From: Bryum argenteum
Taxonomy: Eukaryota; Streptophyta; Bryopsida; Bryales; Bryaceae
Length of the DNA: 64,000 nucleotides
Assembly (NCBI GenBank): GCA_037043015.1
Contig: CM073321.1
Span: forward strand, 15,931,001 to 15,995,000
Direction: 5' to 3'
Below, one piece after another: positions 7,601-36,074 of the stretch (position 1 is the first letter of the stretch; each line of letters opens with the position of its first letter). The notes under the pieces are model-generated. The model was given only the letters and a program-made list of their open reading frames with translations, had not been told where the DNA came from and made no database searches. Made by a program: the position numbers and the translations under genes.

Positions 7601-7636
7601 AGATAGCCAAAGGAGGCTGATTGAGGGGAAACCACC

Positions 7637-7675
7637 GGTGTGAGCGGTGAGCGGTAAAGTTTGAGCGCTAAGAAA
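7637..7675 (+). repeat. GTGAGCGGTGAGCGG motif, inverted relative to 36185-36225
   Basis: The sequence CGGTGTGAGCGGTGAGCGG, followed by TAAAG, has a near-copy on the opposite strand at about 36185-36225. The two face each other across 28.5 kb. Similarity is limited to roughly 25-30 bp of GC-rich, internally repetitive sequence. Confidence 0.35.
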
Positions 7676-7705
7676 AAAAAAATTTAAAGTTATTGGCCCT
7701 ATTAC

Positions 7706-7983
7706 TGTTGTGGAAGTTCTCGCATCTCCCGGGATGGCTTCCGCACACCCACCGTCTACCTTATCACGAGGATCTAGTTGAGGCCGTTAGCACAGTGAAG
7801 GAGCTCGATATGCGGAGATCATGGGCCACGTGCCGCATCTGTGTAGGGCGGCCGAGCCGCCACTTGCATTGATACCTTGTACCTACTTTTCTCCGAATAT
7901 AAGCTTCTTCTCCCGCTATTCGCGGGCTCTTCTTTTCTTCTTCCATTCTCTGTTTTCGCTTCGGAGCTTGGTCGCTCCTAACA
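7706..7983 (+). repeat. Copia 5' LTR
   Basis: 278 bp, TG...CA ended, differing at two positions from the 3' LTR. It contains an AATATAAG TATA-like stretch near 7896 and a short G/C-rich hairpin-prone segment (CCCGCTATTCGCGGG) likely near the transcription start or poly(A) region. Confidence 0.97.
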
Positions 7984-8762
7984 CGTTATCAGCACGCTAT
8001 CATGTTTTCTTCTCTGAGCTAGTTACTTCCGAAGTCAAGCATGTTTTTCGTCGCGGCAACATGTTTCTCAAAATGCCGCATGCTGTGAGTCTAGTGATGA
8101 TCAGAGTATAGATCTAGAAAGTCCAGCCGCCACTACAGATCGCGCCGCCGCAAGAATGCGCCGACGTTCCTAATTCCCGCCACTAAAATCTACTTCTCTT
8201 TAGCAGCTGAACCCCCTCGTTGTTCATGATCTTCTCTCCCTGACAGAAAAACACTCGTGAAGATCGACCCACTTAGGTCCGGTTAGATTAGCATTCGTCC
8301 CGGCTGCATCCCAGCCGACTAGCTGCACTTGAGCCATCACCGAAGCCGGAGCGCCGCCCAGTCACGGCAGTCACCGAGCTGCTCCGACCTCGCAGTTACA
8401 ACCTTCGCCGCCACTGCAGCAAGTTGATACGCCGTTACTCACCACGGAGACACCGACGTTTCTGACCGTGGATGGCAGATTAAGCCGCAACATCATAGAC
8501 AGCACGCCGTTGACAGCAGCGGCCCTGCGTAATCATCCCCGATACTTCCGGAAGTGCCGTATACTCCGTCCGGGCCTGAACTTCGGCATTTCAGAACGAT
8601 TTCTCATCATTGGTTTTTCTTGACAGGGCCAAAACTCCACATCCCAGCCCAAAGTTCGTCGTTCCCAGAAGTGGCATTTCACTGACAGCCTCGACAGTCC
8701 TGGAGTGCCGGGACCATCACCTCACACCGCAACATCACCGGCTCATGCTCAACCCAGTGATC

Positions 8763-11700: not shown

Positions 11701-13415
11701 GATCCCATCGGAACTCGGAAGTGGAGCACACTCCCGAAGTTCAAGTATCCATAGAACTCGAAGTTGAAGCATTTGTAACCTAGCTAACATCTCTCGATAA
11801 TGATCCTCTAACTCTTGAACAAGCACAGAAGCGGCCAGATTGGCCACAGTGGAAACTCGCGCTTGAGGCCGAGTACCACTCTCTCCGCAAGCGCGAGGTG
11901 TTCGGTTCCCTACGAACAGATCTTAAGACTAAGCCAACCGGTTACAAGCTAGTGTTCACAAGGAAACGCAATGAGCATGGGCAAGTGACACGATACAAAA
12001 TACGATGTGTCGCCCAAGGCTTTAATCAAAGACCGGGGGTGGACTTTGATCAGACTTACTCCCCGGTCATGGATTGCTCTTCTTTTCGTTTCCTCCTGGC
12101 TCTAGCTGTGCAGATGACTCTCACCACGAAGCTCCTTGATGTCGTGACCGCCTACCTCTACGGCGAGCTTGATGAGGAGATATTCATCAAGCCACCACCG
12201 CAGTTCTTGGACACAACTCCAACACCCCTTGCGGGGAAGTACAACGGCCTTCGCTTGCGCAAGGCGTTGTACGGGCTTAAACAAGCCGGGAGGGCGTGGT
12301 ACCATCACCTCCGCCGTTTTCTAACTGAAAATGGCTTCACCTGCAACCAGGCACTTCCTTGCATTTTCGCTCGGGCCACACAGGGTGAGTTTGTCATTTT
12401 AGCTGTTTATGTCGATGACATAAACCTCGTTGGATCACCAGACTTGTGCCAGGAAGTTGAGCAACTTCTCGTAGCCCGCTTCGAGATGAAGCTTCTCGGG
12501 CGGACGACGTTCTGCCTAGGACTTCAGGTTCACCACTGCCCCGATGGCAGCATTCTCTTGCACCAAGAGACATACACGAAGAAGCTTCTCAAGAGCTTCA
12601 ACATGGCGGACTCGAACTCAGTATCAGCACCAATGATAGGACGGAGCAAGACCGGCGACGATCCCTACCGACCTTGCGAGGAGGAGGAGGACGAGGTTGA
12701 TAAGACCAAGTACCTCGCCGCGGTCGGTGCCATCTTGTACCTCGCCACGCACACACGCCCCGACATTGCCTTTGCGACGAGTGTTCTTGCTAGACATAGC
12801 AAGAAACCAGCTCAACGCCACCGGAACGCGGTGAAGCATTTGCTTAAGTACCTCCGCGGCACGGAGGACTTAGGCCTTCACTTCACGAAGACTGCCGACT
12901 CGAACATAACTGGCTATACTGATGCAGGTTACAAGACCGATGAGACGAGCGGCAAATCCCAGACTGGCTACATCTTCATCAAGTGCGGAGCTCCCATCTC
13001 GTGGCGCTCAGTGAAGCAAACCGTGACGGCCACTTCAACAAACCATGCCGAACTCATAGCACTTCATGAGGCTGCACGCGAAGCCGTGTGGCTCCGCACC
13101 ATGGTGAGCTCGATTTCTGAGATGTGCAGGTTCCAACAGACTCCAGAAGCAACACCGATTTATGAGGACAACGCCGCAGCCGTTGCCCAAGTCGGCGCGG
13201 GCTTCATCAAGGCAGACAGAGTCAAACACATCAGCCCGACGCTTTTCGGCTACATGCAGGACTTGATCGAGAGCGACCAGGTGAAGGTGCACAAGATAGA
13301 GTCGGCCCGAAACATTTCCGACATGTTAACCAAGGCCCTGCCTGCTTACAAACACCGCCAGCTCGTTCATGCCGCCGGCATGAGAACACTCCAAGAGCTC
13401 GAGACTTCCACTTAG
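8763..13415 (+). CDS. Copia Gag-Pol polyprotein, interrupted by one TAG and lacking the integrase Glu
   Basis: One frame of about 1,550 codons. I favour the ATG at 8763 (MATIRETRTQTLMFDP); an in-frame ATG at 8745 is also possible. Gag carries a CCHC knuckle CHKCGRHGHFAREC at about residues 316-329. The protease motif reads LLDSASTHTI. Integrase keeps the HHCC finger (WHRRFGH...CVACIQGK) and two acidic residues (HGDICGP, RMDNAMEF). Where Copia integrases have QNG-A-E, this one reads QNGLAKA: codon 10833-10835 is AAG, so the catalytic Glu is Lys. An in-frame TAG at 11781-11783 separates integrase from RT. RT has YVDD at about 12408-12419 and the LYGLKQA region. RNase H motifs (GYTDAGY, NHAELIA, YEDNAAAV) are intact. 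Both lesions are explainable by single transitions. As read, the element cannot integrate on its own protein. Confidence 0.95.
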
Positions 13416-13498
13416 GTGCGAACAGGGAGAAACTCTTTTCTCCTCCCGAGACCTTCCGGGGAGGAGTTTTTAGTGAGTCTCCCTCGTTCGAGGAGGAG

Positions 13499-13776
13499 TG
13501 TTGTGGAAGTTCTCGCATCTCCCGGGATGGCTTCCGCACACCCACCGTCTACCTTATCCCGAGGATCTAGTTGAGGCCGTTAGCACAGTGAAGGAGCTCG
13601 ATATGCGGAGATCATGGGCCACGTGCCGCATCTGTGTAGGGCGGCCGAGCCGCCACTTGCATTGATACCTTGTACCTACTTTTCTTCGAATATAAGCTTC
13701 TTCTCCCGCTATTCGCGGGCTCTTCTTTTCTTCTTCCATTCTCTGTTTTCGCTTCGGAGCTTGGTCGCTCCTAACA
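13499..13776 (+). repeat. Copia 3' LTR
   Basis: 278 bp, preceded by the purine tract GAGGAGGAG and followed by the target duplication ATTAC. It differs from the 5' LTR at two sites. Confidence 0.97.
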
Positions 13777-13781
13777 ATTAC

Positions 13782-14576
13782 CATGGTATGTGTGGTGCTG
13801 AATTTTTGAAATGGTTATTATTAGGCATAAAAGTACACAAAACCGTGGATATAGGTCCTTTATCCATTTATGGTATTGAGGTTATACAATATTTCATAAA
13901 TTATCTACATTTGCAAGTTTAAATAAAAGTTAATTAAATTAAGGCTGTCATCATCATGTGTAACCCATACAATTCAAATCATATACTGGCCCCGTTCACT
14001 CAGAAATACAAAACTTTAACCAAAATTTGGGAGGGCCCATTAGGACAACCATAAAATCACTTTAATGATTTTAAAATTTAGATTATAATTAGGGCTGACG
14101 TCAACAATTACCTATAACACTTGTCATAATTATATGTAAATGATTCGAGATATATCATCTGAAGTTTATAACTACAAGTCGTCTTTCCAAGTCTCCTTGT
14201 AAGGTGTACACAAAGACATTCACGTAGCATTGTAGTGGTCCGAGTTCGATTCTCCTCGGGCTCGTTTGAGCGTTGCAGTGCGTCATAAAGCAGCTATCCT
14301 GAGCTATACAAATACTAAACTAGAGCCTCTACCAACATTGGCTAGATTCAATCACTCCAATTGAATATAAAGAAACGTTTTGAAACTTTTAGTTTGCATT
14401 AAGTTTAAAACTTAAACATTTAGATATTAATTAAGAATGCATTAAACGTTAATGATTAATAGGTAAACGTCATATATAGATATAAAAACGTATAATAAAA
14501 TCACATGTATGACCAATGACGTAGAGCAACTATATAACCCTACATAGTCCAAACCAAAACAAGAAAATAAAAACAC
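13782..14576. other. AT-rich non-coding DNA, no gene
   Basis: Before Copia inserted, this stretch was continuous with sequence left of 7701. No supported ORF. A TψC-arm-like GAGTTCGATTC near 14239 is not part of a foldable tRNA. Confidence 0.5.
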
Positions 14577-17500
14577 CTACGATGCTGATGGTGAACAACC
14601 ATTAAAGTGTTGGTCACACTGATCAGCCTCATCGTCTATAAACGCAAGCACTCTCGAGCTAAAGCGTCGACGTGTACTACTGTCCGATAAGACGGGAGAA
14701 GGGGCAACGACAAATTCCTGAGCTATCCGCTCCGCATAAGATGGTAGGGTGAAGGTTTGTGGAGGACTGCTGTAGAGACTTCCGTCGCCAATCAAGCGTC
14801 GATTGGAACCTGCGATCCTAAAAGTACAGAAAAAGTCAATACCAATAAATTTCTAACAAGTGAAGGTGACAGTAGAAGGGGGGAAAGTAAGAGATAAGTA
14901 CGCACAAAATATTGGGCGTTGCTTCTTCTGAAGTGGTTCAGAAGTGTCACTGTCGTAGTCATAAACTAGAACCGAATCGCCGCTTTCTTCCTCAAAAACG
15001 GTACTATCCACGCATGCCGATAGAAGTCCGTCATATATCTCTTCATAAGCTTCAACAGCAATGAGATGACGGTTTGATCGCGCGCAGGCAATCACGGAAG
15101 CACCTACATACCAGCAACCAACATCAGAACTACAATACTGAATAAGTGGAATGAGAGTTGGTATAAGCAACAACTAACCTGTACTAGGGCTCCAGTCAAA
15201 GGCAATTCCCCGCTCGTGTGTGAGAGAATCAATAAAACACTGGATGAAGGAGGGACCCTTCTCTCGCGAGCCATGCCACGGAGTACCATCTTCCTTCACC
15301 GCGCCACGCCACGCCACGCCAATGGAGTCATTGCTCGCAAAATTGAAAACATGGTCCTCCTCGTCGGGAAGAATGGGTACACCTGCGTACTCTTTCACAA
15401 CCTGTCTTATAGAGAATCTCGTGGCAGAAGACTTCCGAACAAAGACCTTAATGTGAAAGTTGTGAGTCTGCAAAATTCAATAGATGAGAGAGATTTAACA
15501 AAACGTTGTAAATAATCATGAATTATGATTTGAATGCAGAATGAAGACCATACCGTTTTCACGTGGGGGTTCGTCGAGGCCATTGGCATGGGATTATATC
15601 CCCACCAATCTCGCACCATTCGGAGTTCGAAAGCCTTTGACTCGGCATCCAGAGCTTTCTCGACTCGACAATCTTTGGGATGCATAACAAGTATCGCACC
15701 CTCGTCTGTCAAGTTGTAGAAAGCAAAAAAGAACACATTCTTGAAGTAGCTTTTCTCTCGCTTGTTCCATGAAGGGATATCGACGGGCGACACGTCAGGC
15801 ACGGGTAAGTTCTCGGGAACGTCTGCGTAGATGAGATCAATGCCGGGATGGGGGTGTTTTGTGCCCATCTCCTTACATGGGTACTTCTTGTCCTTGCCAA
15901 TCTTTGGAAATCACAAAAAGTTAGACATGTTGTAAACGACAGGTTCCAAACAGAATTTCAGAAATAAAAGAATGTAATAAGAGATTTAAGACATAATACC
16001 TTTCTAATGTGGTTAATGTTGTCCATGACTTGTGTGTCACAATCTTTTGTTTCATGAGCTGCCTTTTGAACAGAAGCTCTCATATCCCCTTTTTCCAAGT
16101 ACATTAGGAGAGAAATAGTAATCTCAGAAGACAAGCACTCTCCAACATGCTTCGGTTCAAGAAATGGTAGTGAAGCAAACTTATTTTCGGAGCTGTGGTC
16201 GAAAGTGAAAGATTGAGGAGGGGACCCCGCATTCGTAAGAGCGCCTACAGAAATCTGAGTCAATGGTCGACCGCGTCTCCTTCCATTGTTGGTTGCTCCA
16301 TCTGAAGCCTGAGTCAAATCAGCTTCTTCTGGACCTGCAACGTCTTGATGGAGCGGAGCGATTTCATCGGGTTCTTAATCAAGATCAACGACAGGCTGCG
16401 CAGCGGCGTTGGGTCGCATTCTGTTTGCTCGGGTTCTAGGTTGTACAACCGGTGAAGGAGGTTCGGAGGGTGAGACAATTGCGCTTGGTAAAATGGAGAC
16501 GTCTTTGTCGTCATCGTCATCGATCTCTATAGCTGCATTGCCTGGTGCGTTTGAAGTGAGGTTCCGAAGCAGATGTCTCTCTTCCTTGTGCACAAAGTTA
16601 TCGTTGCACTCTAGGAACCAACCACCGGTCAGCAACTGTGAGTTGGAGAACCGTCTCTGTTGGGCTTCGGAGAAGATGCTGGATGGATCATTTGAGACGG
16701 CTAAGTCCTTGAGCTCAGCTGGAATGGACCAGGAAGCCAAGGCTCCTTTGCCAACAAGCTCCTGTTTCAAGTACCTACAATAAAGAGAACATAGTACAAT
16801 GACAGAATTCAATAGGTCGTAGTGATTTTGGAAATCAGCAAAATGAGTAGGAAATTTAAAAGCTAAGTGAATACATGCCAGAATAAGAGCCGATTAGTAG
16901 TAACCTTGCCACCATTAAAAATCTGAGTATCGGATCCTTTGATGAACTTGGGGCTGGCATTTTGAGCGAGGTAGTTCTCGAATGCCTTTTCCCATAAAAG
17001 CAATCTCCATTTCTCAACATACGCGGATGGTTTTAGTACCGCATCCGTCCACTGAATGGAAATTCTGCCATCCTCCAGAAGTTGTTGTTTTCCACTTTCG
17101 AGGGTTTGTTGTAACTGCAATGAGATAGAACTCGTAAGAAAAAGTAGATAGTGGATGACGGGAGTACAGTAATTACAGAAGTCCAGTACAATATACCTGA
17201 GCCCAGAGAGAAGCGCGATGCAAAAAGGCAAGCAATGTTTTATCCTTCATAGGGCGCTCTACTGGGAAGTGGACAGATTGACGTACATCATCCAGCGCAT
17301 TCCACCAATGGAGCCACTTTCCCTTAAAATCGAAGTGGACATTGGTGGTGGCTACCATGTGCAACCGTTCGATTGTCATATCGGGCTTCAGGTTTTGGCT
17401 GTAGTGAGAATAGATTTGCACATAGAACAAATCGAAGTAATAAATTTCAGTATTGATCAATAACAATATTAAGTCTCTTTAGAAACTAAGTAAACAGAAT

Positions 17501-17875
17501 TATTTACCTCTTTTGGGAATACTTTCCCAATTTTGTTATTGGCGACAGCAACCATCTTGTCGAACTTTTTGTCACGAATAGATTTGATTTCCGCTTTGAT
17601 GGCGTTATCCATGGCACTCCACACTCCTAGCCCTGTTTGCTTTTCTTTGGGGGTAGTGGTGTAGTAAGTAGCCTCGACATAATCCGATGCTTTCGCTAAC
17701 CTCCTCTACATTGCACAGAAGTAGTAGTAAGAAATTGTAATGAATACAGTACAAGATAGAAGTGTTTAGTACGTATTCAGAAGTCTTACCTCGTATAAGA
17801 ACTTGACGAAGACGTCTACTGTGACAGGATACCATGTTTCTTTCTTTGCTTTAGCGTTTTTGCAAATTTGATAAT
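14577..17875 (-). pseudogene. ParB-methyltransferase fusion gene, 3' part: helical middle, AT-hook, DNA N4/N6-methyltransferase-like domain
   Basis: Downstream half of the gene whose 5' half is 27361-28389, separated from it by Gypsy I. Exon blocks, 5' to 3' on the minus strand: 17875-17790 (remainder of the split exon), 17705-17508, 17398-17197, 17114-16875, 16774-16000, 15901-15554, 15467-15179, 15103-14898 (GTACTT donor) and 14817-14577. Most edges are canonical; the 17508/17398 and 16875/16774 junctions do not keep phase. The long exon holds an AT-hook core (GRRRGRPL) and an in-frame TAA at 16375-16377. The 15.9-15.1 kb exons look like PF01555-type methyltransferase. HPGIDLIYADVPENLPVP sits where DPPY is expected, with DVPE in its place. 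Downstream come WHGSREKGPSFIQCFIDS and then FDWSPSTGASVIACARSNRH at the AdoMet (FxGxG) motif, followed by IAVEAYEEIYDGLL. Motif IV precedes motif I, as in beta-class enzymes. The predicted role is DNA base methylation or a degenerate derivative; activity is doubtful. Confidence 0.65.
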
Positions 17876-18680
17876 TGTTACCCAACTGACGTCACACGGT
17901 AACCACGGCAACCAAGGCGGGAGCAACAGCGGCAACAGGGCAACCGCGGCATACTTAACGGAGGATATAGCTGCAGAAATAGGGGATCAAGGCGACCGAG
18001 GCAGGAGACAAGTGCTGACCAGGGATACCACGGCAGCCAAGATAAGGGCGCCGCCAGATTTGTAGGATCTCCGAGCAGTGCCGTAGTATTTAAAAAGGTA
18101 GAAAATAGGAGAGAGGACTCTCAGTAGTCACCATAGAAGCTAACGTCCGGCATAGACACCACTCGCCATTGTATTATGATTGATCACATGAATGCAAAGG
18201 CCGTAGAGCCAACACTCTCTTTTATTTTTGTTTCCTCTCATTCGGCACTTCACTTGTCCTTCTACCGTGATTGCATGGATGCCGTGAATACCTAACTGCC
18301 CCCCCTTGGGCTTTACAAGCTGTCTCAATCTGCACAAGGACTCCGCGGCATCTGGACAGTCTCAGTTAGGTCTCCTGCACTCAGCACTTGAACCCCGGTG
18401 AACTTACACTGCCTCGGGTTCCCGATCCACAGTACCTCACCTTCTTTCCGTTAGACACCGCTGGTGCAATCAATTCCCCCCTCGGTATCCCTGTTCACAC
18501 ACACACACAACCTCGCAGGGGGATAAAAGTATGACTTCGACTTTCTAAAGACTTCCTCAAGGTCAACTCCTTGCTATTTATGGGACTAAGTTTACTCGGT
18601 CCTACTGCTGTCCTCGCTATCCTACAGCAGACCATCGATGAGCTCGTAAAGCATTCCATCCTCGCTAACCCAGGCTATCA
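17876..18680 (+). repeat. Gypsy I 5' LTR
   Basis: 805 bp, starts TGTTACCCAAC and ends CTATCA. It contains a (CA)n run near 18500 and a TATTTAAAAAGG TATA-like stretch near 18088. Confidence 0.93.
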
Positions 18681-18754
18681 TTTTGGCGACCATGCTGGGG
18701 ATGGAATGTTGAGTCATCCCAAAAAATAAGTGAAATCATAAACAGACAAAAAAC

Positions 18755-21700
18755 ATGCCTTTACGAAAAGCAACAGAGAAGAACGCATAACCTGAAGAGG
18801 TCACACCACAAGATGACCAAGATACCACGAGAGAATTGCTCCAATGGAGGAAACAACAAATGACCGATTTGTCGGCAAAAAATGATGCTACCAATGCCAA
18901 GATTGAATTACTAAATTCTCACTATCTCCAGGGAATGGGAACGTCTACAACTGTTTCAAATCCACCCATCGTCACCATAGCTAGACCATCAGGACTGCCG
19001 TCCATCAATACCACAATGGCCGCTTCCATGGCATCCAGAGAACGAGACCGACTCATCAAGTTACCAAAAATACCTTACCCAGTCTTCGATGACTCTGGTG
19101 ACCCAGATTGGCACATGCGCAAGTTTAAAGTGATAGCGCGAACCAACGGTGTCACCAGCACAGAGGATTTGCAGAATATCTTCGGGACCACGCTCCAAGG
19201 CAACCACATCAATTGGTATATTGATTTCGAGGCCGAGCACCTATTACCAACATGGGAAGAAATGGAACGTAGTTTTTTGCAAAAATTCAGAAAACTAAAA
19301 ACAAGCTCCGAAATCCTCCGAGCTTTAGGAAACATTCAGCAGGAGAGAAACAAACCCGTTGACAAATTCTACGACGGATTCAAACAATTGGCGGACAAAC
19401 TCAGTCAACGACCCGAGGAAGACTACCTATGCGAATGGTTCAAAAAGAGATTACTACCTTGGATACAGCAAGGCATAATCATCCGCGAAGTAAAAACACT
19501 ACAAGACATACTAGCCGCTGCCAATGATATCAGCAGGGAATTCAGCGTCATTGATAAGACTCAAACACCATTGTTGCCACTTCCAACAATTCGCGTAACC
19601 ACCCGCCCAACACTCACACCATGCGCCACTTGTGGAAAACTCCACGCGGGGCGTTGTTGGTTTTCCAATACGGCAACAAAAGCAGAGGATACCAGGCCTA
19701 CACGGACCAAGGCCGCTTCCATGTATCCAGAGGAAATCGATGTGGATGCATTCCAACCTGGCAGAAATGATGGCTGTTGGGAATGTGGATCCCCTCATCA
19801 CAGACGGGGACAATGCCCGGTTTTAAAACATCGCTGGGCCAACACCCGCACTTCCGCAGACACCTAGGCACACCACGACAGCAACGAAACGAACTCCAAC
19901 AACAGGAGAGGAGGGGTCACTCTTACCGAAGTCCATGGTACCAACGTGGCTACTATAAGCACCGCGGCGGTAACAACCAGGTCAAAGGCCACCGTGGATA
20001 ACCATGTCGTCAAACACCGCAAACCTTTCGCGGAACAGCATTGGAAAAGACTACACAACCTACGGACAGAAATCCAAGCTGACTTGGAAGCCGCGGTAGC
20101 ACCAGACCTGCAACAGTTACTAGAAAAGACTGACGTAAGAATCACGTTAGCTGATCTGTTAAAAATAAGCCCGGAACTACAAACTTATATACAAAACATA
20201 CACAAAACAGCAACTATAACCACGGCAACCGTGGTAATCAATGCAACAACCATAGACACCGATGCAGCAGTTATACATGTCCGATTGGGGCAGCACCAAT
20301 TAGAAAATGTGCTGGTCGACGGAGGTTCCGGGGTCAATGTAATTAGCGATCACCTCAGACAACAGTTAGGACTCCCACGGCCAACAACAGCACAGTTCGT
20401 CCTACGAATGACAAATGATGCCCCGGTGACTCCATTGGGAATCCTAGCCACTGTGGCTATCACCACTCACGGCATTTCTACACCGGCAACTTTTGTTGTC
20501 ATTGATATGCCGGATAGCAGCAATTTCCCTATGATATTGGGGCGACCATGGTTACGTGACATGAATGCAATTCATGACTGGGCCAGGAATCAAATAAGGA
20601 TCCGAAGATATGGGAAAACCATGATAATTCCCGTAGACAGTTGCGTCACCCGAGAAAAAATCAAACAAATACGTCATCAGGCTGGCATGGCATGGGGCAA
20701 AGGGCTGACACATGAACAAGAGGCCCTGGTTTTCCACGCCGACCCCGATCTAATCCCGCTAGCAGAGATTCACTTAGCCAGCGTGGTCTCACAGGAGGAC
20801 ACACTCGATATTCCCCCAAGGTTTACCACCAAAGTCGCCGAAGGGGTCGTCATTGACAACACTCCGGCAACAAAAGCATTAAGTAAGCAAGTAATAACTG
20901 GGTGGACACATGGGTCCAAAGAACAAGTACAGCTCGTTAATCTTGGTACGGAACAGGAGCCAAAAAATGTCAAAATAAACGCCGACGCCCCCAACGACAT
21001 CAAACAAGCAGCTATAGCACTATTCAAAGAATACCATGATATTTTCGCATGGACGCATGAAAATTTGAAACGGATACCAAGGACGATAGCTGAACACACA
21101 ATAGACCTGGTACCAAACGCTCACCCAGTCCAACAGCGCAGATACCGAATGAATCCCAACTATGCTACCAGAGTCAAGGCAGAACTAGACAAGCTGCTCG
21201 GTGCCAAATTTATATCCCCGGTAGACTCGGCACCATGGCTGTCTCCGATGGTAATCATCCTTAAGAAGAACGGCGCATTACGAATCTGTGTGGACTTTCG
21301 CAAACTCAACGCAACAACTAAAAAGGATGACTATCCTTTACCTTACATGGAAGAAATCATAGATGAAGTTGTAGGACAGGAAATGTACTCCTTTCTAGAC
21401 TGTTTTTCAGGATATTATCAAGTCGCCATGGCAGAGCAAGACAAGAACAAGACCGCGTTTTCCACGGAGTGGGGTCCATATCAATACGAAAGAATGCCAT
21501 TTGGGGCCAAAAATGCACCTATGACATTCCAACGTGTCATGGAATTGATTTTTTGCCCCTACTTAAAGAAATTCTTCCGGATTTACCTAGACGACGGCAC
21601 AGTGTACGGGCGAATGCAAGATTATGTTGACCAGTTGAGACAGATCTTTCAGGCTTGCAGAGAAAACGGGATAAACCTCAATGCCGACAAATGTATGTTC

Positions 21701-23722
21701 CTATTCTTCGCCGGAGTCATCTTCGGATATATCGTCTGCAAGTATGGCAAACTCCCAGACCCGTCTAAAATCCAGGATATCCTAGATATGACCCCACCCA
21801 AAGATCAAAAAGGCGTCCAAAGACTACTTGGCATTTCACAGTTCAATAGAATGTACATCAATAAATTAGCTCATCTAACGGCACCGATAGCTGCCTTAAA
21901 TCATGCAGGGTATTCATACCCACGAGATTGGACTCCAGCAGCACAGATGGCCTTGGACAAAATCAAACAAGCTCACTCGGAGGCACCAATTCTTCTTGCA
22001 CCCAACTGGGCCAAGCCATTTCACGTACACATAGACGCATCCAAAATCGCCGTGGGAGTGATGCTAGCACAGAACGTCAATGGTAAACACGACCAACCGG
22101 TGGCATACGCTAGCAGGTTGCTAAACCAAGCAGAACGGAATTATTCCACGACGGAACAAGAGGTGCTGGCCATGGTTTATGCGGTAAAGAAATTCCGACA
22201 TTACTTATTAAGAAACAAATTTCGATTTATGGTAGACCACCACAGCTTGTCTTATCTAGTAAACCAACCGTTAGTCACCGGAAGAGTTGCTCGATGGATC
22301 ATGATCCTCATGGAATATGACTTCGAGGTAGTTTTTGTGCCCGGAAAACGACAAATTGTAGCAGATTATCTCTCCAGGGACACCAATGCTACCGAAGAGG
22401 GCATAGATGACTCCTTTAACGAGCCGTATATTCAAGCTGCCTCGCTGCAACCCAATGTCATCGGCACCACGGAAGTCCAAAAAGATTAGAGACATGACAT
22501 CATGGAATACTTAGGTCAGGGCAATATTCCGGAAGGGCTGACAGGCTCCCAAAAAAACAGCTTTGTAAGGACCACATTCCCATACACTATTGGTGACAAC
22601 AGGTTGTACCGAAAAGGCACCGATTTAGAGACTAGACTCTGTGTGACCACCAAGGACCAGCAACAGATCATTACCACACTCCATGCTGGCCCCGCAGGCG
22701 GACATCAAGGACCGGAGACCACAGTTTAGAAAATATTTGCTGCCAAATATTGGTGGCCCACGGTGCACAAGGATGTCAACACCTATATTAAAAACTATCA
22801 CGTATGCCAAACTGCAACCACCAATTTTCAGCATCAAGGAAGAGTGCCACTCAAATCGATACCGCCACTGGGACCATTTCAAAGATGGGGGCTCGAATTT
22901 GTGGGACCACTAAAACCAGCAACGAAACAAGGATACAAATACATTTTGGTGGCCACGGATTACACCACCAAATGGGTAGAGGCAAAGCCTTTACGCAACA
23001 ATACCGCCATGGTGACCGCCACTTTCCTCTACGAGAATGTCATCACTCGTTTTGGGTGTCCCTTGGAAATCATTTCAGATCAAGGCACGCATTTTGTCAA
23101 TGCAGTCATCGAAGATCTCATGGACAACCATCTCATCAAACACAGGACCAGTACAGTCTATTATCCCAAAGGGAATGGACAAGCAGAATCTACAAACAAA
23201 ACTATTCTAACCATGTTGCGCAAATTCGTGATAGCTAACCAAGTCGACTGGGATGACTGTTTGCCTGCAGCCTTGTGGGCCTAAAAGGTGGCTACTAAAG
23301 CAGCCACCCATTTTAGCCCATTCAAACTTGTGTATGGCACACAGCCGTTGTTACCGACAGAATATATTGTGCCAACCCTTAATTCCATGCAGCCACGTCA
23401 TTACCAACCTCATCGTATCCTCGCAGCCCGCATGGACGATTTACACAGGCTTGAAGAATTCCGTGGAGAGGCAAAACTGAATATCTTACGAAGACAAGCA
23501 CTAAGTGCAAAATATTTCCAAGGCTCTAAACCTCCTTGGGTATTCCAAAAAGGTGATCAAGTGCTATGGTGTCCAGGAGACCCAAAAATCAGGAAAGCCA
23601 AATTCGGGACAATTTGGCATGGACCTTACAGGGTGCAGTTAGTTTCACTGAAAAACACAGTACTTTTGGTAAATAACGACAACTACGATACCCAGGCCAC
23701 CATTGTTAACGCGGAAAATTGA
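18755..23722 (+). CDS. Gypsy I Gag-Pol polyprotein, one frame with five in-frame stops
   Basis: All parts lie in one frame from ATG 18755. In-frame stops are TAA 18788, TAG 19865, TAG 22487, TAG 22727 and TAA 23282. Gag has the ERSFLQKFRKLK...ERNKPVDKFYDGFK retrotransposon-gag core and two short zinc knuckles (CATCGKLHAGRC, CWECGSPHHRRGQC) near 19621 and 19771. The protease motif is LVDGGSGVNVI (about 20311). RT has DFRKLN, FSGYYQV and YLDD (about 21584). RNase H has VHIDASKIAVG and DHHSLSYL. Integrase keeps ISDQGTHF and KGNGQAESTNK, but the first catalytic Asp of the usual W-G-x-D-FVGP is Glu (GAA at 22895-22897, WGLEFVGP). The 22487 stop falls where a Trp is common, consistent with TGG-to-TAG. 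The element is defective in cis. Confidence 0.93.
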
Positions 23723-24317
23723 AAAAATACCATTCAAATGCTACAAACCAACACCCAACTATTAGTTTAGGACAATTACAAAGCCTACTGTCCACGGAAG
23801 CACAGGAACAAAAACCGTCGCAAGGCATCAAAGGCTTCACAGAGTCCATGGAAAACGAGGATACCACAGATGGCAAGGATAGCGGGGAGACAACTACCCC
23901 ATTAATATATATGAGTCACATACAAGTGGCCTATAATGACGACCAAAACAACCAGTGCGGTCATCCTCGAATGGACACCAAAGAGGCAAAGACATCAGGA
24001 AAAATGAGGGAGACCCCCTCGAGTCACACACACAGGCCATCATGGGTAATCAAGGGTCTACCACAGCCGCCGAAACAGCCCTTGGCCGATGGCTACTGAC
24101 AATACTTACACCCACTCCACCGACTTTTACTCCCACCACCGCGGAAACCACAGCTTACTTAAATTCACCACCGCCGCTCTGTCCTTATTCTCACTCTTAT
24201 ACACTCCCACACTGCCTCACTGCTCACTCTCTCCCCTTGCGCCGTCAATACTCTCTGCCTCGGCCCTTTTTGGCGATTCTCTTGCGTGATCTCTCAGTCA
24301 CACATTCCACGGTTTCG

Positions 24318-26515
24318 ATGGCCGCTCGTAACTTCACTCCGCAGAAACCGAAGCTGGATGCTCCCTTCTTCATGCCGAAGCAACTCCTCGATTGGCGCAG
24401 CAGAATCGATGGAGTTTGGACACAAAACACACTGTTACATCGTTTTTGGGAGGACATAAAAACCTAGAAGTTCAACATCAATCACTGCAGGCAATTCGTG
24501 GATACCATGGCACCTCAGAGCTGCGGAGGGAGCTATCCCACCGGTACTGTGGATGGCGTGCAGGTGCAGTTTTCCGCGGCGTACCTATATCTGCAGTATG
24601 GGTGGGACGGCACAGGCCTCACACAATGGACAGAGAACTGCGGCTTCCCAAAGCCGGACATCGCACAGAGGTTGCCAGGGTTAGAGCAGAAGAACAAGGC
24701 ACGCTACGATACCTATACAGTCGGCGCAATGCTGAAGGAGCCGTGGTTCGCTTGCATCCGCGGTATCATGAGCCAGATTTATTGCAGGTGCAACTGCAAC
24801 AGCATTTTGCCCACACAGTTAGAGTTGCTTTTTCTGGACGACGCAGGAGCGAAGTGAACTGGGGAATGCTCTTCGAGGACCACCTGCGTGTCGAATTGCA
24901 AAATCATCAGCGGTACGTGGATTATTCAAGTCCCATTGGACCATTTCAGTCCACTTACATCCAGCGATACCTGCGGTACTACAAGGAGCACAGCAAATTA
25001 CCGCCGATGTCAAGCTTCGTGGAAATACAGCGGCGGAAATTGCCATCGCCAGCAGAGCCGATCAAGGATGCCGCGGCACCAAGCGTTAGTAAGAGGCCAC
25101 GCACAAAGTACGAGGACATCGTCGGTGACACACAACAGACACTGGCAGACGAGCTCGACCAACAAGCCGCAGCCATGGCAGCATGCATGGAACAGGTGGT
25201 GCAACACTTACAATCTTCGGAGGGACAGCATCGGCACCTAAGAGTAGAAAATGAGAGATACACCAAAACCACGCAGGACCTGCACACACAGCTGCGCAAA
25301 AAAGGTGAAGAATTAGGTCAGGCGATACAGAAGGTGGAAGAAGCAAACCGTGCAGCCCAGACTCTTCACAGTCAACTCGCCGCAAAGCAAATTGACCTAC
25401 AGGAAGTGACATCACAGCTTAACGGGGTCGCCAAGGAGAGGGATAACGCAAGAGAACAATTGATATTCTTGGCAGCACAGAATGACGAACTCCGGCAGCA
25501 ATGCCGGAACCTGATCGACACCAATCCCTCAAATCCAGGGGCACAGAGTTTGGAGGAGCGTCGTCAAGCCTTAGCTACCGAGGCAGAAAACTTTGAAGCC
25601 AACAAACAGGCTTGGGTTCATGATGCCGCAGCTGTTTTGGGCGAAATACTTTTCAAAGCTATTCGCCAGAATCCCCCACAGACAGATGACATCGCAGTTG
25701 ACATGGTGGCAGCTTGCATTGAGGAAACGCTCACAAAGTTACAATTGAATGCCGATTATGATGTAGAGTGGCAAGAATCCAGCCACGAGGGCACCAGTTT
25801 TCCTACGGACGCCGCGGTTACCGAGGGAGAACAGCCACCAGAGCAGGTCCCAGCATCACACCATCTTCCCGAAGACGTGGCCAAGGTTGTCACAGCAGAA
25901 GATAGCAAGGGGGCGCATCATCAGTATCAGAGTATTGTCTTGATAGACGAACAGCTGCAAGATCGAGTGCATATTCCCGAGCACCTAACCAACACAGACC
26001 AAATGCCCCGACCATCACCGACGGCAGCTGAGGACAGGGATCGATCGCCAAACCGCCCGCCTTTGTCTTCGACAACATCCGCGGCACAGCCATCCTCACC
26101 GGTAACCCTTAAAATTTCATTCGCATCTCATCGACAGGCTTTAATACAGTTATTAGATGATAACACATGGCATGTGGAACCTGAGGATGACAGCGATGCC
26201 GATGAGGAGTACCAAGATGCACACGATGAAGTACAGAAGAACTTCAACAACCACCCCGATCTTGCACAACGTTTCGCGGACCACACAGCTAGCGATGTCC
26301 AGTGCCCGGGTTGTAACAAAATGCTTGGCAAAACAGTCCATGAAGTCCACGAACACGCCAACACAATTTGGAACCGACGCTCATTACACAGGGGCATTGC
26401 CGCAGCCATCCGATCGATGTATGACGATCAGCCTCCGCCAAGCCGACAACAACAGCTACCACGGGAACAGACTTGTCCCGACAGGCGACCGGCCGATCGA
26501 CGTGCCAAGCACTAA
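24318..26515 (+). CDS. Gypsy I extra ORF (ORF3): coiled-coil protein with C-terminal CCHH-like finger
   Basis: About 730 codons in sense orientation between integrase and the 3' LTR, the position where some plant Gypsy elements carry an env-like or accessory ORF. Start chosen at ATG 24318 (MAARNFTPQKPKL). The first part reads to about 24845 with one TAG (24465-24467, context IKT-stop-KFNINH), then slips one frame and continues openly to 26515. The N-terminal third is globular (FSAAYLYLQYGWDG, CNCNSILPTQLELLFLDD, then VNWGMLFEDHLRVELQNHQR). From about 25130 to 25530 it is a long coiled coil (LADELDQQAAAMAACMEQVV, LHTQLRKKGEELGQAIQKVE). The C-terminal half is acidic and disordered and ends with CPGCNKML...HEVHEH, a possible zinc site. 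I find no transmembrane segment, so it is not an obvious envelope protein. I do not recognise the family. Confidence 0.8.
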
Positions 26516-26555
26516 GAAATCCGGGGACGGATTGCGCTCTCACAGGGAGGGCAAA

Positions 26556-27360
26556 TTTTACGCAACTGACGTCACACGGTAACCACGGCGACCAAGGCGG
26601 GAGCAACAGCGGCAACAGGGCAACCGCGGCATACTTAACGGAGGATATAGCTGCAGAAATAGGGGATCAAGGCGACCGAGGCAGGAGACAAGTGCTGACC
26701 AGGGATACCACGGCAGCCAAGATAAGGGCGCCGCCAGATTTGTAGGATCTCCGAGCAGTGCCGTAGTATTTAAAAAGGTAGAAAATAGGAGAGAGGACTC
26801 TCAGTAGTCACCATAGAAGCTAACGTCCGGCGTAGACACCACTCGCCATTGTATTACGATTGATCACATGAATGCAAAGGCCGTAGAGCCAACACTCTCT
26901 TTTATTTTTGTTTCCTCTCATTCGGCACTTCACTTGTCCTTCTACCGTGATTGCATGGATGCCGTGAACACCTAACTGCCCCCCCTTGGGCTTTACAAGT
27001 TGTTTCAATCTGCACAAGGACTCCGCGGCATCTGGACAGTCTCAGTTAGGTCTCCTGCACTCAGCACTTGAACCCCGGTGAACTTACACTGCCTCGGGTT
27101 CCCGATCCACGGTACCTCACCTTCTTTCCGTTAGACACCGCTGGTGCAATCAATTCCCCCCTCGGTATCCCTGTTCACACACACACACAACCTCGCAGGG
27201 GGATAAAAGTATGACTTCGACTTTCTAAAGACTTCCTCAAGGTCAACTCCTTGCTATTTATGGGACCAAGTTCACTCGGTCCTACTGCCGTCCTCGCTAT
27301 CCTACAGCAGACCATCGATGAGCTCGTAAAGCATTCCATCCTTACTAACCCAGGTTAACA
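26556..27360 (+). repeat. Gypsy I 3' LTR
   Basis: 805 bp matching 17876-18680 with about 16 mismatches. Its first bases read TT instead of TG. The end TTAACA is followed by target duplication ATAAT. Confidence 0.93.
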
Positions 27361-28389
27361 ATAATTCTCCGGAGTAATGAGATCCTTGAAATCTTCAAGA
27401 TTCAACTTACCGAACTTTCGCATGTGTTGCACCTTTGCACATAAACTGTCTTCGATGTGGTCATGTTCAGTAGACCTATATAGCGGAAAGTTAGACCTAT
27501 ATATGAGAATACGTCGAGATTATAAAAAATTGAAAGAAAATTAATCAAAAAAATGTTTGAAGTACTTACCATTTATGTCATTCATGGCGTCAAGGAGAAG
27601 ATTGCTTTGTCCGCGAGCATCCAGTACGATGCAATCAACTGAGATGTACCATGATGGATCCATCTGGTGGGACCTCTCTATGTGACGCATCCACGCCGTC
27701 ACACGATGGTTACCTTTGTATACGTAGAAGTATTTGCAAGTGAGATGATGAAGATCAGGATCCGACATCAAAGTCTTTTCGAACTCTTCATTTGCATCTC
27801 TCCATAGCGGATTCTCCTTCACACCATCACCTGCATCAACTTTTTTTTCTCTTCATTTTTTATCGAATGGAGATACATACATTACCCGATCTCCTTCTCG
27901 ATAACCTTTGTTGAACTCGTTCTCGAGTTTCCGAATGTCTTGTTCGGAGATAGGCCGAACCTTGGGATAACACACCAAACGGCACAATGGAATGAGCATA
28001 CGAGACTTCTTCACAGGTTTGAAACGAAACCTGTTTATGATTGCTATAAAATCACTTTTATGAATCATCCGCATCTCATTCGCACTTCAATCAAGATCTT
28101 TGTTTTGGAGATGGGGTGGCATGTGCATGATGCCGACGTTGACACTCCCTGGCAAAGAAGACTCTTCGTCATCCGATGGGGGCTTGTGTCCATCGGGATC
28201 TTGCAAAGCCTCCGAAGAAGGTTCAGGTTTGATAGGAGTATGACGCGGAACCGGAGAAGAAATGTGTTCTTCAATTTCCTGTGGCAAGGGTGTGCTATCA
28301 TCTTCTTCAGGAACTGGACTTGACTCAAAGTTTTGAGGGGAGATATCTTCTTCGTCTTGAAGAGAGTGAAGCTCGGATATTCTCATCTG
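27361..28389 (-). pseudogene. ParB-methyltransferase fusion gene, 5' part: acidic N-terminus and ParB-like GNHR domain
   Basis: Upstream half of the gene continued at 17875-14577. The first coding block starts ATGAGAATATCCGAG at 28389 just after an acceptor-like TTGATTTGTCAG, so the ATG could be the start or an internal Met. An acidic Pro-rich stretch leads to an in-frame TGA at 28087-28089. The same frame then reads CRLVCYPKVRPISEQDIRKL, resembling the ParB N-terminal segment (RP-s-edi--L). The next exon (about 27840-27566) holds YVYKGNHRVTAWMRHIERSH; G-N-H-R is the ParB/Srx-fold signature motif. It ends in a donor (GTACTT) that keeps phase with the exon at 27475. That exon (STEHDHIEDSLC...DLITPENY) runs straight into the Gypsy I target duplication, and its reading frame resumes exactly on the other side (QICKNAKAK...). 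Known bacterial and phage proteins fuse ParB-like and N6/N4-methylase domains; finding the pair in a spliced nuclear gene is unusual. Confidence 0.65.
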
Positions 28390-28526
28390 ACAAATCAAGA
28401 AACAAAATGCAACACCGCACCAAAATCATAAGAATAAATCAATAAAGTAATAATATATTAATTGAAATATAAAACCGTTTATAATGTAGAAAAATGTTAT
28501 GAGTATCAAATAATCTTGTGATAGAA

Positions 28527-28850
28527 CTAAATGGATTTGAACTTCGCTGCAAGTCGCGGAGAACGTCTGGGTCCAACTCTAGCTAATGCTTTCGCATCGA
28601 TACGTCTAGCTTTGGCGTCATTCTTTTTAACTCTCATGTTAACCGCTCGTGCAAACCGATCAAAGTCATCACGTGAAGTGTGACTGACAGGTGGGGCAAG
28701 AGGCGGAGTTTCGGGGACTGAGGACAATGGTATTACTAAACGTCGGGACTCTACATAAGCCATAACATCAGCTTTTATAGCCGATAAGTCGCTCTCGGCA
28801 TCAGAAGTCTCGTCCTCTTGAACTGCCTTCACTTTTAATCGGCCCTGCAT
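28527..28850 (-). CDS. Last exon of an unrecognised basic protein gene
   Basis: Minus-strand exon beginning after an acceptor (GTGAATGCAG, then GGCCGATTA) and ending in TAG at 28527. About 106 codons: an acidic first half, then a strongly basic tail (MRVKKNDAKARRIDAKALAR, GPRRSPRLAAKF). The composition suggests a nucleic-acid-binding or nuclear protein. It lies about 140 bp upstream of the ParB-methyltransferase gene on the same strand. It may be that gene's own upstream exon made terminal by mutation, or the end of a separate gene. Upstream exons were not identified. Confidence 0.4.
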   Translation of the reverse strand: MQGRLKVKAVQEDETSDAESDLSAIKADVMAYVESRRLVIPLSSVPETPPLAPPVSHTSRDDFDRFARAVNMRVKKNDAKARRIDAKALARVGPRRSPRLAAKFKSI

Positions 28851-29039
28851 TCACACACACACAACATCCATCGCAAATATCAATCACAATCCACATGAAA
28901 AGAACAGGGCTAATCAGACATTACTTAGTATCTAAATGAGAAAAGGAGTCTTTACAAGTCCAATGCGGGTTGATTAAAACAACAAGGGGTCAAAAAATAA
29001 TCTAAAACACCGACAATCATGACGATCACAAGGAGCCGT

Positions 29040-29300
29040 TCTGATCCAACCCTCCCCTGAATCCTCGAGAATTCTGTCCTGAAGCCCATAGAGTTCAATC
29101 ACAGACGAGCCCCAAAAAAAGAGAAGCAGGGGTCTAATCCAACCCTTCGAATGGAGGGCCAGCCTCTCCCCTGGCGAGGCACGAGGAACGATAACAGGAC
29201 CTCCTCGAATTCAAACACAGACGAAAAAAATGAGAAGCTGGCCAGACCTACGGCACCGCAGCTCTCCCCTAGCGACCACGAGGAACAAAACCACGACCTC
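29040..29300. repeat. Diverged direct repeat of about 115 bp
   Basis: The block CACAGACGA...GAGAAGC...CTCTCCCC(T)...GACCACGAGGAAC-like occurs around 29096-29200 and again around 29211-29290. Part of it also recurs around 29040. The copies are clearly related but well diverged. The remaining sequence between 28860 and 29040 shows nothing recognisable. Confidence 0.5.
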
Positions 29301-29691
29301 CCTGAAGAGAGATCGTGAATTTTGTGCAGTACCACACCTCGAACTCCGCCCTTGTTTTCATTGCTTCACCAGGAGCATGATGAGCCTTGTAATATTCCTT
29401 GTAAAATTCGGCGAAAAGACTTGAATTTGAGGATTGGAAACTCTCATTTTCTAAACCTTCTTGACGTGCTCACTCTCTCCTTGCATTCCCACCTCTTTCT
29501 CTACAAAATCCGCCATGGTTTCTTCTTCCTACAATTTCTTGACAACAATGTTGTGCAACTTCATCAAAAAACTTCCTCCCACAACTTGACAGTATCAAAG
29601 CGCCTCCCATTTTGCCAGTACGTTCTGTTGCTTCTACTAACAATAGACTGCCTGCCGAGCACATCGGCGGTTCCTGCTTTGGCCTATTCAA
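29269..29691 (-). pseudogene. Unrecognised ORF with one in-frame TGA
   Basis: A minus-strand frame open from 29691 to a TAG at 29269 except for TGA at 29470-29472. Protein-like segments include MGGALILSSCGRKFFDEVAQ and FAEFYKEYYKAHHAPGEAM, and the C-terminus is Gly/Arg-rich (LQGGRGFVPRGR). TGA from CGA by one transition would explain the break. No domain recognised. Confidence 0.3.
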
Positions 29692-29759
29692 AAATAGAAC
29701 AAAATTTTATTGTAAACAAATATGCTATTCACATGTCGCTGACTTTGGCCACAGTGACG

Positions 29760-30180
29760 GGGCGGCGCCCTTGGCGCACACAGAGAGCCGGCTCCGAAAT
29801 AAGCAGGAGGGGTCGAGAGAAGATGTACTCCACCGTCGAGGAGGGCCTGCGCCGAAACAGAGCAGGCGGCGTTGACCGGGGGGAGGGCCGGCGCCGCTAC
29901 CGGAACCCGGCCGCTCGCCGGTACCCGACAGCTTGGCGGTAGTCCGGCAGCTCGCCGGTTCTCCGGCAGCTCGCTGATACCCGGCAGCTCGCTTGTACCC
30001 CCCTGCCCAGTCGCAACCTGTCCCTAGCGAGACCCGACCCAAGGTCGAATCTTTCCCGGTCCATGTCGAGACCCGTCCCCTTCAATACCCGTCCCTGCCG
30101 AAACCCGAACCTTACCCTGTCCTTCCAAATACCATAACCGAACCCCCCTACCTTACTTGGTCTCTCCCTGGTCTCTCTTT
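29760..30180. repeat. GC-rich short-period repeats, no gene
   Basis: Variants of CGGCAGCTCGC with CGGT and TACCCG recur between 29895 and 30000, followed by irregular CGAACCC/GACCCG-type words to about 30150. Overlapping ORFs on both strands are artefacts of the repeat. From 30180 to 30572 the sequence becomes AT-richer; an 84-codon plus-strand ORF at 30246-30500 has no recognisable feature. Confidence 0.5.
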
Positions 30181-30572
30181 GCTCCGAACACATTCATAAT
30201 TTAATTTATTTTTACATTCGTTAATTTTGCTTATGAACTTTATTCATGAACTTTAATATCATCTCCAATAGTCTCATATTCAGGAATTACAAACTTGAGA
30301 ACCGGATTTATGTGATTGAGACCCGCAGGTTCAACATAGAGGCCCACAACATGAAACATTGTTTGCACTATAAAATCACTAATAAACATAATCTTTTGTC
30401 TTGGATCCATATATATCATGGAACTCTATACTGTCATAAGTTCAAGTTACATCATATTGAAGAAAGGACTCTCGTTGATTGTGTATTTAATCAACCCTAA
30501 GTCCTCCCAGTAAACCAAGAAGTAGGGTTTCTCATGTACCTCCTCCTCTCATTCTTCAGCGCTTGTGTCCAC

Positions 30573-31184
30573 TTATTTCGCTTCATCATTCTGTGTTTCC
30601 TGATGTAAAGGGGCTTCCGCTGTCTCCCCCACATCAGTGACTCTTTTCTCCTCAAACTTAGTTGTTTTGTCTCCTGATCGATCGTCTTTTTCTTCCAATC
30701 CTCTGCGATCCTGAAGACAACACATGTTGATATTAATCCATACTCGTAATCGGGGATAGTTTAACTTTCATGAATATCAACTTATTTGTAACATATATTA
30801 CTTCATTACCTCATGTGTAGAGTCCACACCTCCATCATCATTCCCATCTGCACAAACTATCTCGCTTGACGTCCTGAACTGCCCTCTACTCCCTTCCTCC
30901 TCTTCTTCTTTAGCTTCGTCAGTCCCGACACTCTCCGGGACACTGTCGAGGTTGAGCAAGCGCATTTTGATAGTCCGTCTGAATGGTAGTAGGACATCAT
31001 CGTCGATCAAGATATCGTACCCGTCTGGCTCCCGATCATCGCCGCTAGAGCTTCTACTATCATACCTGCGCATAGCACTACGCCTCTGTGCTTTAGAATT
31101 AGTGAACTTCGTTCCACCCCTCCGCTTCTTCTTTCTCTGACCTATCTCCTTTCCTCTCTCACTACCGCTAGCGGTTTCGTCCAT
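30573..31184 (-). CDS. Small two-exon gene, about 170 residues, charged nuclear-type protein
   Basis: I do not recognise the family. Exon 1 runs 31184 (ATG, MDETASGSERGKEIG) to 30810. The 99-bp intron has a GTAATG donor and a GTCTTCAG acceptor. Exon 2 runs 30710-30573, and the splice is phase 0, giving about 170 codons and a TAA. The N-terminus is basic with a nuclear-localisation-like GQRKKKRRGG. The middle is acidic (YDILIDDDVLLPFRR) and the C-terminus is Glu/Lys-rich. A TATATAA lies about 100 bp upstream. The gene is divergent from, and next to, the decayed transposase starting near 31736, so it could be the accessory gene of the same transposon. No break is visible in either exon. Confidence 0.6.
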
Positions 31185-31280
31185 GCTGCTTGCAATGAGA
31201 TAGCTTTTCACACGTTCCACTAAACGAGCCCAATTGTTCTCACTACAAATGAAGAGGTTGAACTATGATTTTCAACTCCA

Positions 31281-31288
31281 TTATATAA
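31281..31288 (-). promoter_or_regulatory. TATA box of the small gene
   Basis: TTATATAA on the minus strand about 100 bp upstream of the ATG at 31184, with no competing upstream ATG seen in between. Confidence 0.45.
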
Positions 31289-31735
31289 GTTCCCCCATGC
31301 GGCTAAGAAACCCTAATCATTCAACGCGTATTCCCTAACATCCCGCTCTCACCGTGTCTGACAATCCAAAATAAGCTAACTTTTGAACGCATCTATTATC
31401 CAACTAAATCTCTGACAATGACTGCCGCCGTCACTTTTCCTTCTCCACCTACTTATTTTATGGACGAATCTCATATTTTTAATCGTGACTACTTAATGCA
31501 ATTCTGTTAAACCTAATATTTTAAGTATTACAAGTATTGTGCATTTAAATGTTCCTGCTTACGATTAAGAGTATCAATTACATGTACGTTTTATTATAAG
31601 AAATTTTGTTTAATAAGTATGCAATACGTATGCAAACACCCTACACCAATTTCTCGTATTTGAACATTCAAAACGCACTTCAGACTCTCTTTCTCTGCGC
31701 ACTTGTTGATGTTGTCTTCCTCGCCTCCGTCTGTC

Positions 31736-35535: not shown

Positions 35536-35541
35536 AATGCC

Positions 35542-35783: not shown

Positions 35784-36074
35784 ATCTCCTCATCTATATA
35801 CGCTATATGTTAGTCCTATGATTGGGTGTATGTGATATTTTTTCAAAACTTATTAAATATAATTATACTAGTACCTACATGTACAATAAACCTTGCCAAT
35901 TTGTCTAACTTGGAGTACTAGTCACTTAGAAATATTACCTTAGAAACCTCTTGACATTAACAAATTGTCATTTACTGTCAAGTTTATAGCTCAAGTCCGA
36001 CCAAATTCATGGAATTTAAACCTTATTTCTACGGGTTTAGGTCACTTAATCCACGGTAATAATTCAAGAAGATT

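Follow-up and report, generated by a model that had tools for sequence, protein, structure and literature searches.

The transposon and its place in the window

What does a ParB-like domain do when it is fused to a DNA-methylase-like domain in the nuclear genome of a moss? The question is raised by a spliced gene on the minus strand (28386 to 14577) of a stretch of 64,000 bp from Bryum argenteum, referred to below as the window, to which an earlier note, made from the sequence alone, had drawn attention. The ParB-methylase gene is part of an abundant mobile DNA transposon with terminal inverted repeats (TIRs) in this moss genome, and the structure of the gene and the element, as described below, is considered nearly certain. 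The position of the gene fusion next to palindrome-like arrays suggests a system of novel design for self-recognition or anti-silencing.

The element and its parts in the window are as follows.

7625..36229, minus strand: TIR DNA transposon, whole copy including nested retroelements (28.6 kb); in gene orientation it starts at 36229, and its ends are common to copies c6 and c2
7615..7624: target-site duplication GGCTGATTGA, identical to 36230-36239
36230..36239: target-site duplication GGCTGATTGA, 10 bp, pairing with 7615..7624
36183..36229: terminal inverted repeat on the transposase side, imperfect; 36183-36216 correspond to the opposite end of c6, inverted, over 34 bp at 100%
7625..7660: terminal inverted repeat on the ParB-methylase side
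7706..13776, plus strand: nested copia-like long terminal repeat (LTR) retroelement within the transposon end
31664..35370, plus strand: divergent transposase-like gene, broken, with open reading frames (ORFs) at 31664-32320, 32464-33582, 34072-34581 and 34582-35370

Duplications of 9–10 bp are present at all six copies read at both ends (one, at C1:11974895, is ambiguous up to 12), these six having been picked because both ends were found. Three copies were read together with their flanks. By alignment, the common ends of the element are GGAC(A/G)TTGCTACCGTGTGAGCG at the start and CGCTCACACCGGTGGTTTCCCC at the end, with small variations, and the TIRs are imperfect and about 30–35 bp long. The layout consists of a TIR, an outward-pointing transposase-like gene, a non-coding middle, and the ParB-methylase-like gene towards the other TIR; in copy c6 the element is 13.9 kb long. 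An inverted-repeat search within 13.7–36 kb of the window returned no TIR, the other end being at 7.6 kb.

Copies in the genome

The home genome (258.8 Mb in 25 contigs) was searched with parts of the element; only scored places are counted as confirmed copies, the first-look numbers being those of candidates. All 150 scored places match the ParB query (81–96% identity besides the query itself; 1142 first-look candidates), and all 150 match the transposase query (1064 candidates). With the methylase query, the best 150 scored of 1933 candidates gave 216 matches. For the right and the left ends, 40 of 40 scored places match in each case (430 and 603 candidates, respectively), and the left end of the window copy also appears among the genome-wide left ends.

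Distances between the parts were derived from all 150 matches for ParB and for the transposase, and from the 137 methylase matches shown that start near the query start. Thirteen of the 40 right ends lie 4.36–4.83 kb from a listed ParB exon. A ParB exon on the same strand is found inward within 40 kb for 15 of the 40 left ends and 18 of the 40 right ends, the opposite-strand control being 1 in both cases. These matches, and the location of the gene between transposon ends in all six two-ended copies, bear out the earlier suggestion of a family amplified as a transposable element.

Contig C1, which makes up 17% of the genome, contains 63 of the 150 listed ParB exons and 57 of the 150 listed transposases, and may be a chromosome rich in transposable elements or a sex chromosome. 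Copy c6 seems to have landed within exon 9 of another copy, diverged to about 58% identity in the ParB exon, and a third copy (about 38%) lies beyond it, which gives a picture of nested subfamilies (flanks L071/L072).

The transposase-like gene is also present in c6 and c2, and 17 of the 150 scored matches are stop-free frames of 738 amino acids. For 62 of the 150 listed ParB exons, a listed transposase lies upstream, divergent and within 30 kb, the other arrangements numbering 5, 2 and 5 and the shifted controls 1.5. For 22 of the 40 left ends, the transposase is located 2.1–2.8 kb inward. According to the excerpts of PMC6446971, Mutator-like elements have target-site duplications of about 8–11 bp, and a SWIM zinc finger occurs in many Mutator groups. 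The moss element looks Mutator-like in the length of its duplications, its TIRs, the SWIM-like end and the arrangement with two genes; hmmscan gave no match to the MULE domain PF10551 in the transposase, which counts against the assignment. The only Pfam match of the transposase is a sub-threshold SWIM finger (PF04434, E 0.036), and a comparison with PDB sequences gave none. A D-D and C-x2-H pattern, presumably that of a transposase, was seen by eye.

The ParB-methylase gene

The gene in the window is composed of the following parts.

27570..28386, minus strand: exon with the acidic N end and the ParB/Srx domain; in-frame stops at 28087 and 27853
27361..27475, minus strand: first part of the next exon, as far as the Ty3-like insertion (start approximate)
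17876..27360, plus strand: nested Ty3-like LTR retroelement, 9.5 kb, with LTRs 98.3% identical over 802 bp and a 5-bp duplication, ATTAT
17790..17870, minus strand: continuation of the split exon past the Ty3-like insertion, unbroken in c6, c2 and c7
16000..17705, minus strand: middle-region exons 17508-17705, 17197-17385, 16875-17114 and 16000-16773; in-frame stop at 16375
14906..15901, minus strand: methylase-like domain, exons 15554-15901, 15179-15467 and 14906-15103
14577..14809, minus strand: final exon

The introns have mostly GT-AG borders, and scans for tRNA and Rfam families gave no match. Both blocks described earlier are there, YKGNHRVTAW in the minus-strand frame 27541-27852 and the block FIDS...FDWSPSTG / ASVIAC...IAVEAYEEIY at 15467-14906, interrupted by one intron. 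The AT-hook that had been placed between the two domains was lost on comparison: RGRP is not conserved, c7 reading RGRQ and two Ceratodon proteins being without it. The window copy is dead. The stops previously noted at 28087 and 16375 are joined by the third one, by frame breaks and by the Ty3-like insertion. To this extent the earlier diagnosis stands, but the sequence DVPE in the methylase-like domain, which had been counted among the signs of death, is not one (see below).

In copies c6, c2 and c7 the exons run in order from ParB to methylase, with the ParB domain N-terminal to the methylase, and the order is kept in the diverged copies beside c6. In 51 of 150 cases, a listed ParB exon is followed, 2517–2677 bases downstream on the same strand, by a listed methylase exon; at that distance upstream there is none. 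Going by this order and spacing, the ParB and methylase exons may form one transcript; joint transcription rests on these two features because the Ceratodon gene models begin within the middle region, without the ParB part.

The median dN/dS (ratio of nonsynonymous to synonymous substitution) is 0.091 for the ParB exon (dS 0.41) and 0.042 for the methylase exon (dS 0.26), in samples of 30 copies per exon that are the top protein matches, so that dN is biased low. Even with this bias, such dS with so little dN is not what would be expected of long-dead copies. It is to be set against this that, apart from the bias itself, stops occur in five of the 30 ParB segments and two of the 30 methylase exons of the sample, and that c6, c2 and c7 each contain a stop or a frame break. 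Therefore, of the intact relatives envisaged earlier, less damaged copies were found elsewhere, but none of those read is fully open.

The two domains

Twenty-eight relatives of the ParB side were found (E 8e-79 to 5e-19), and a model of it matches ParB, Noc, sulfiredoxin and their kin, by which it is assigned to the ParB/Srx fold. In the GNHR-like motif (alignment A5), N138 and H139 are invariant and G137 and R140 nearly so. There was no match of PF02195 to the ParB side at E 10 (HMMER filters drop most matches above 0.1), and neither PF01555 nor PF02195 matched any of the ten raw window ORFs scanned; PF01555 likewise had no match in the window's own exons. A search of 50,697 phage records with the ParB part (tblastn, E 1) gave no match, and the ParB alignment picked up 11 pattern stretches in viral contigs, none of them a relative.

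On the methylase side, two proteins of Ceratodon purpureus match with 45% and 43% identity over 92%. PF01555 was reached through a relative, P0047 (E 4e-6; 27.4 bits versus the curated cut-off of 26.7), and another relative, P0001, is under the cut-off (E 0.0024). Two places in the moss genome, distant kin of the gene, match PF01555 at 26.8 and 26.7 bits; their identity is 54% to P0047 and 37% (E 3e-9) to the window gene. Loci L009 and L010 of the same genome are 54% identical to P0047. P0047, P0048 and P0049 are diverged relatives of the methylase end, closest to PF01555, and are located on contigs of 170–554 kb. The methylase alignment gave 82 pattern stretches in viral contigs and, in the form A3, 16 stretches in prokaryote contigs (a scan that covered the methylase side), with no relative in either set.

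The profile evidence thus comes from PF01555, by way of P0047, but not from PF02195. With the ParB fold and the ordered exons in c6, c2 and c7, it supports the proposed spliced nuclear gene that joins a ParB-fold to an N4/N6-methylase-like domain, and the 51 exon pairs and the three copies are paralogues in which both domains occur together. The assignment of the methylase fold rests on sequence profiles because the 803-residue AlphaFold model of the methylase half (Ceratodon protein) is poor, with a predicted local distance difference test score (pLDDT) of 42, which tells against it.

The methylase-like domain retains motif regions X, I and II, with altered glycines in motif I (DWSASTGAS in the family versus the GSGTT type in phage enzymes). 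The catalytic motif IV of N4/N6 methylases is (D/N/S)PP(Y/W/F), and the phage enzymes compared have DPPY/DLPY. The profile comparison (A3–A7) covers 56 columns, from motif X to motif II, and the position of motif IV was placed by domain order and by eye. At this position the window copy has DVPE where DPPY/DPPW is expected, 29 of 30 genomic copies have D(V/I)PE and one has NVPE, and the diverged copy beside c6 has DLPE. The 12 relatives that show the stretch have DAPE (including Ceratodon), DAPS, DAPD, DTPS or DVPE, and in two cases YAPE and DALE. DPP(Y/W/F) is absent from all of these 30 copies and 12 relatives. Since D(V/I)PE prevails in the copies and similar words in the relatives, DVPE is a trait of the family. 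Decay of the window copy was rejected as the explanation of DVPE, given the low dN/dS and the retention of D(V/I)PE in all but one of the 30 copies, and for the same reason it is doubtful that the protein is an active base methylase.

The inverted repeat upstream of the gene

Most copies have a CGG-CA-CCG inverted repeat immediately 5' of the gene, in many cases within tandem arrays whose unit differs. The window copy has the following site.

29251..29258: one CGG-CA-CCG inverted repeat, upstream of the gene

The tandem arrays in the middle of the element vary, with units of about 116 bp over 3.0 kb in c2, 15 units of 170 bp in c7, and short repeats in c6 and the window; an array with a period of at least 40 is found within 1.5 kb upstream of the ParB segment in 13 of 30 copies. 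Common to the units of c2 and c7 is TGCGGCACCGCA, with arms TGCGG/CCGCA around CA. These arrays contain it 17 and 14 times, respectively, and the middle of c6 has 4 occurrences; the remainder of c2, the gene part of c7 and the window have none.

The core was counted as CGGCACCG or its complement CGGTGCCG, and not as every CGGYRCCG. In the 30 upstream stretches it occurs 64 times, in 25 of the 30 copies, against a shuffle mean of 0.6 and a highest value of 4 in 200 rounds; four of these copies (the window, c6, c2 and c7) were examined beforehand, and the same 30 served to refine the core. The 1.5 kb on the opposite side, where the body of the gene itself lies, contain no occurrence in these copies. 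The 17 copies without an array contain 20 sites, versus 0.3 after shuffling. In a separate test, the 17-mer CTGCGGCACCGCAAGTC, which contains the inverted repeat and was drawn from c2 and c7, was found 117 times genome-wide and its reversed control 0 times. Among the 100 listed of these 117 sites, 71 (11 of 14 clusters) lie 0.9–3.4 kb 5' of a listed ParB exon.

Several observations weigh against so close an association of site and gene. The other 29 listed sites (three of 14 clusters) are 12–34 kb from the nearest listed ParB exon, on its 5' side, and within 1.5 kb, five of the 30 copies are devoid of sites. In the window copy there is a single site, without an array of it; a further match, at 21886, is located in the nested Ty3-like element. 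Moreover, the sites are not independent, the copies being related; for example, L013 and L020 agree both in their sites and in the positions of these.

Another repeated word, GATGCCGA/TCGGCATC, was counted 48 times in these 30 upstream stretches (L011–L040), and part of it may fall in the exon.

Possible role of the protein

The ParB-methylase protein is proposed to bind the CGG-CA-CCG sites, or to use them as starting points for spreading, as ParB clamps do with parS, with the methylase-like domain holding DNA or S-adenosylmethionine (SAM) instead of methylating. The protein would thereby mark the element's own non-coding middle, and the mark might keep host silencing off both genes, or steer the transposase to the element's own copies, as VANC does for VANDAL. 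Judged from the sequences, a self-directed DNA-binding role of the protein seems slightly more probable than not having one, and the element structure and this role, taken together, are given a little better than an even chance. Anti-silencing in particular, which is suggested by analogy, is a tentative and somewhat improbable specification. As a guess, it is placed first among the roles, help in transposition second, and methylation third. A full ParB/parS-like transposon system, in which a clamp fused to a non-catalytic methylase would load at the fast-changing arrays, spread over the middle and block silencing, each subfamily recognising its own copies, is unlikely.

The inverted-repeat arrays may instead be promoter elements for a host transcription factor, unrelated to the ParB-methylase protein. 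They are indeed located between two divergent genes, but the array unit changes between copies and the site is kept, which also fits a co-evolving binder encoded by the element; this explanation is possible, although we would not expect it to be the correct one.

It is rather unlikely that the protein is a transposition accessory factor, whose ParB-like domain would nick or clamp DNA for the transposase, like some Mutator second ORFs. The gene is the second, divergent one of a two-gene transposon, Mutator groups with antisense second ORFs are listed in the excerpts of PMC6446971, and the ParB-methylase Bce_0392 is reported as DNA-nicking in those of PMC5512222. In the copies read, however, the inverted repeat is in the middle of the element and not at its ends.

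An active methylase producing N6-methyladenine (6mA) or N4-methylcytosine (4mC) as a mark on the transposon's own DNA is improbable. The regions of motifs X, I and II, in which it is homologous to PF01555, would agree with such activity, as would the lowest dN/dS being that of the methylase exon, but neither the motif IV words of the copies and relatives nor the altered glycines of motif I do.

Gene capture by transposons is known (PMC13317346, in excerpt), but a host gene fragment passively carried and functionless for the transposon is highly improbable, considering the low dN/dS at dS 0.26–0.41 (in a biased sample), the exon order kept in the diverged copies beside c6, and the methylase half kept in Ceratodon. 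The least probable is the horizontally acquired plant DNA-modification system serving the host that the earlier note had in mind: the gene belongs to a 28.6-kb mobile element whose ends flank it in all six two-ended copies (chosen for having both), and, of the horizontal acquisition, what stands is that both domains are bacterial in kind, but no donor was found in partial searches (viral contigs and phages for ParB, viral and prokaryote contigs for the methylase).

Relation to known systems

Few transposon families, VANDAL foremost among them, are known to counter silencing by a sequence-specific protein, and VANC is not known to have a ParB or a methylase fold. The excerpts of PMC5735166 and PMC10398659 describe VANC as binding a short motif that is gathered in tandem repeats differing between VANDAL copies, where DNA methylation is lost. 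As far as these excerpts go, the likeness to the moss element lies in several genes, 9-bp duplications, possibly a SWIM-type transposase, and element-specific non-coding tandem repeats varying between copies, and the difference lies in the motif, which is YAGTATTAY for VANC (PMC5735166) versus CGG-CA-CCG in the moss. A Pfam search of the moss protein gave no match pointing to VANC, no direct sequence comparison having been made.

In the excerpts of PMC5512222, Bce_0392 and phage polyvalent proteins likewise have a ParB-like domain fused to a DNA methylase, and these ParB domains are described as nucleases or NTPases. The moss gene differs from such bacterial fusions in being eukaryotic, spliced and carried by a transposon, in its altered motif IV and in possessing a long middle region. 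From the ParB/Noc CTPase clamps with parS, the moss protein differs in the lack of a PF02195 match, its resemblance being known from the ParB/Srx fold and the GNHR motif, and the CGG-CA-CCG site is unlike parS.

N4CMT of bdelloid rotifers is also a PF01555-type methylase taken up by eukaryotes, but, as an enzyme of the host, it has a chromodomain and its catalytic motif is intact, whereas the moss gene is a transposon gene without the catalytic motif. METTL14-type pseudo-methyltransferases, which keep the methylase fold with a changed motif IV and hold nucleic acid as an RNA partner subunit, share with the moss protein this putative combination of fold and motif, but METTL14 has no ParB domain and no transposon.

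If the proposed anti-silencing role is true, mosses would have a second, unrelated solution, made from bacterial-type parts, i.e. a ParB fold and a methylase fold without the catalytic motif. Matches to PF01555 in plant genomes of this kind are not necessarily a sign of adenine methylation, and the finding supplies a site and a protein that can be tested. No description of such a system was found in the open-licence PMC literature (subscription papers and preprints being outside this scope), and PMC12695648 mentions neither ParB nor moss, bryophyte or land plants.

Other features of the window

Four further features of the window were observed outside the transposon.

1674-3029, minus strand: pair of adjacent ORFs, of which one has a weak OB-fold match (CDC24_OB3, E 0.002, under the cut-off); RPA-like by eye
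39201-40127: 30-bp tandem array of about 29 units, open on the minus strand for a 10-residue repeat (LLGSCLLNAQ-like)
49802-51076, plus strand: ORF of 424 amino acids with a weak protein-kinase match (PF00069, E 0.0027, under the cut-off)
52660-60399: further LTR retroelement, whose near-identical repeats are spaced by 6.76 kb; by eye, its frames resemble reverse transcriptase

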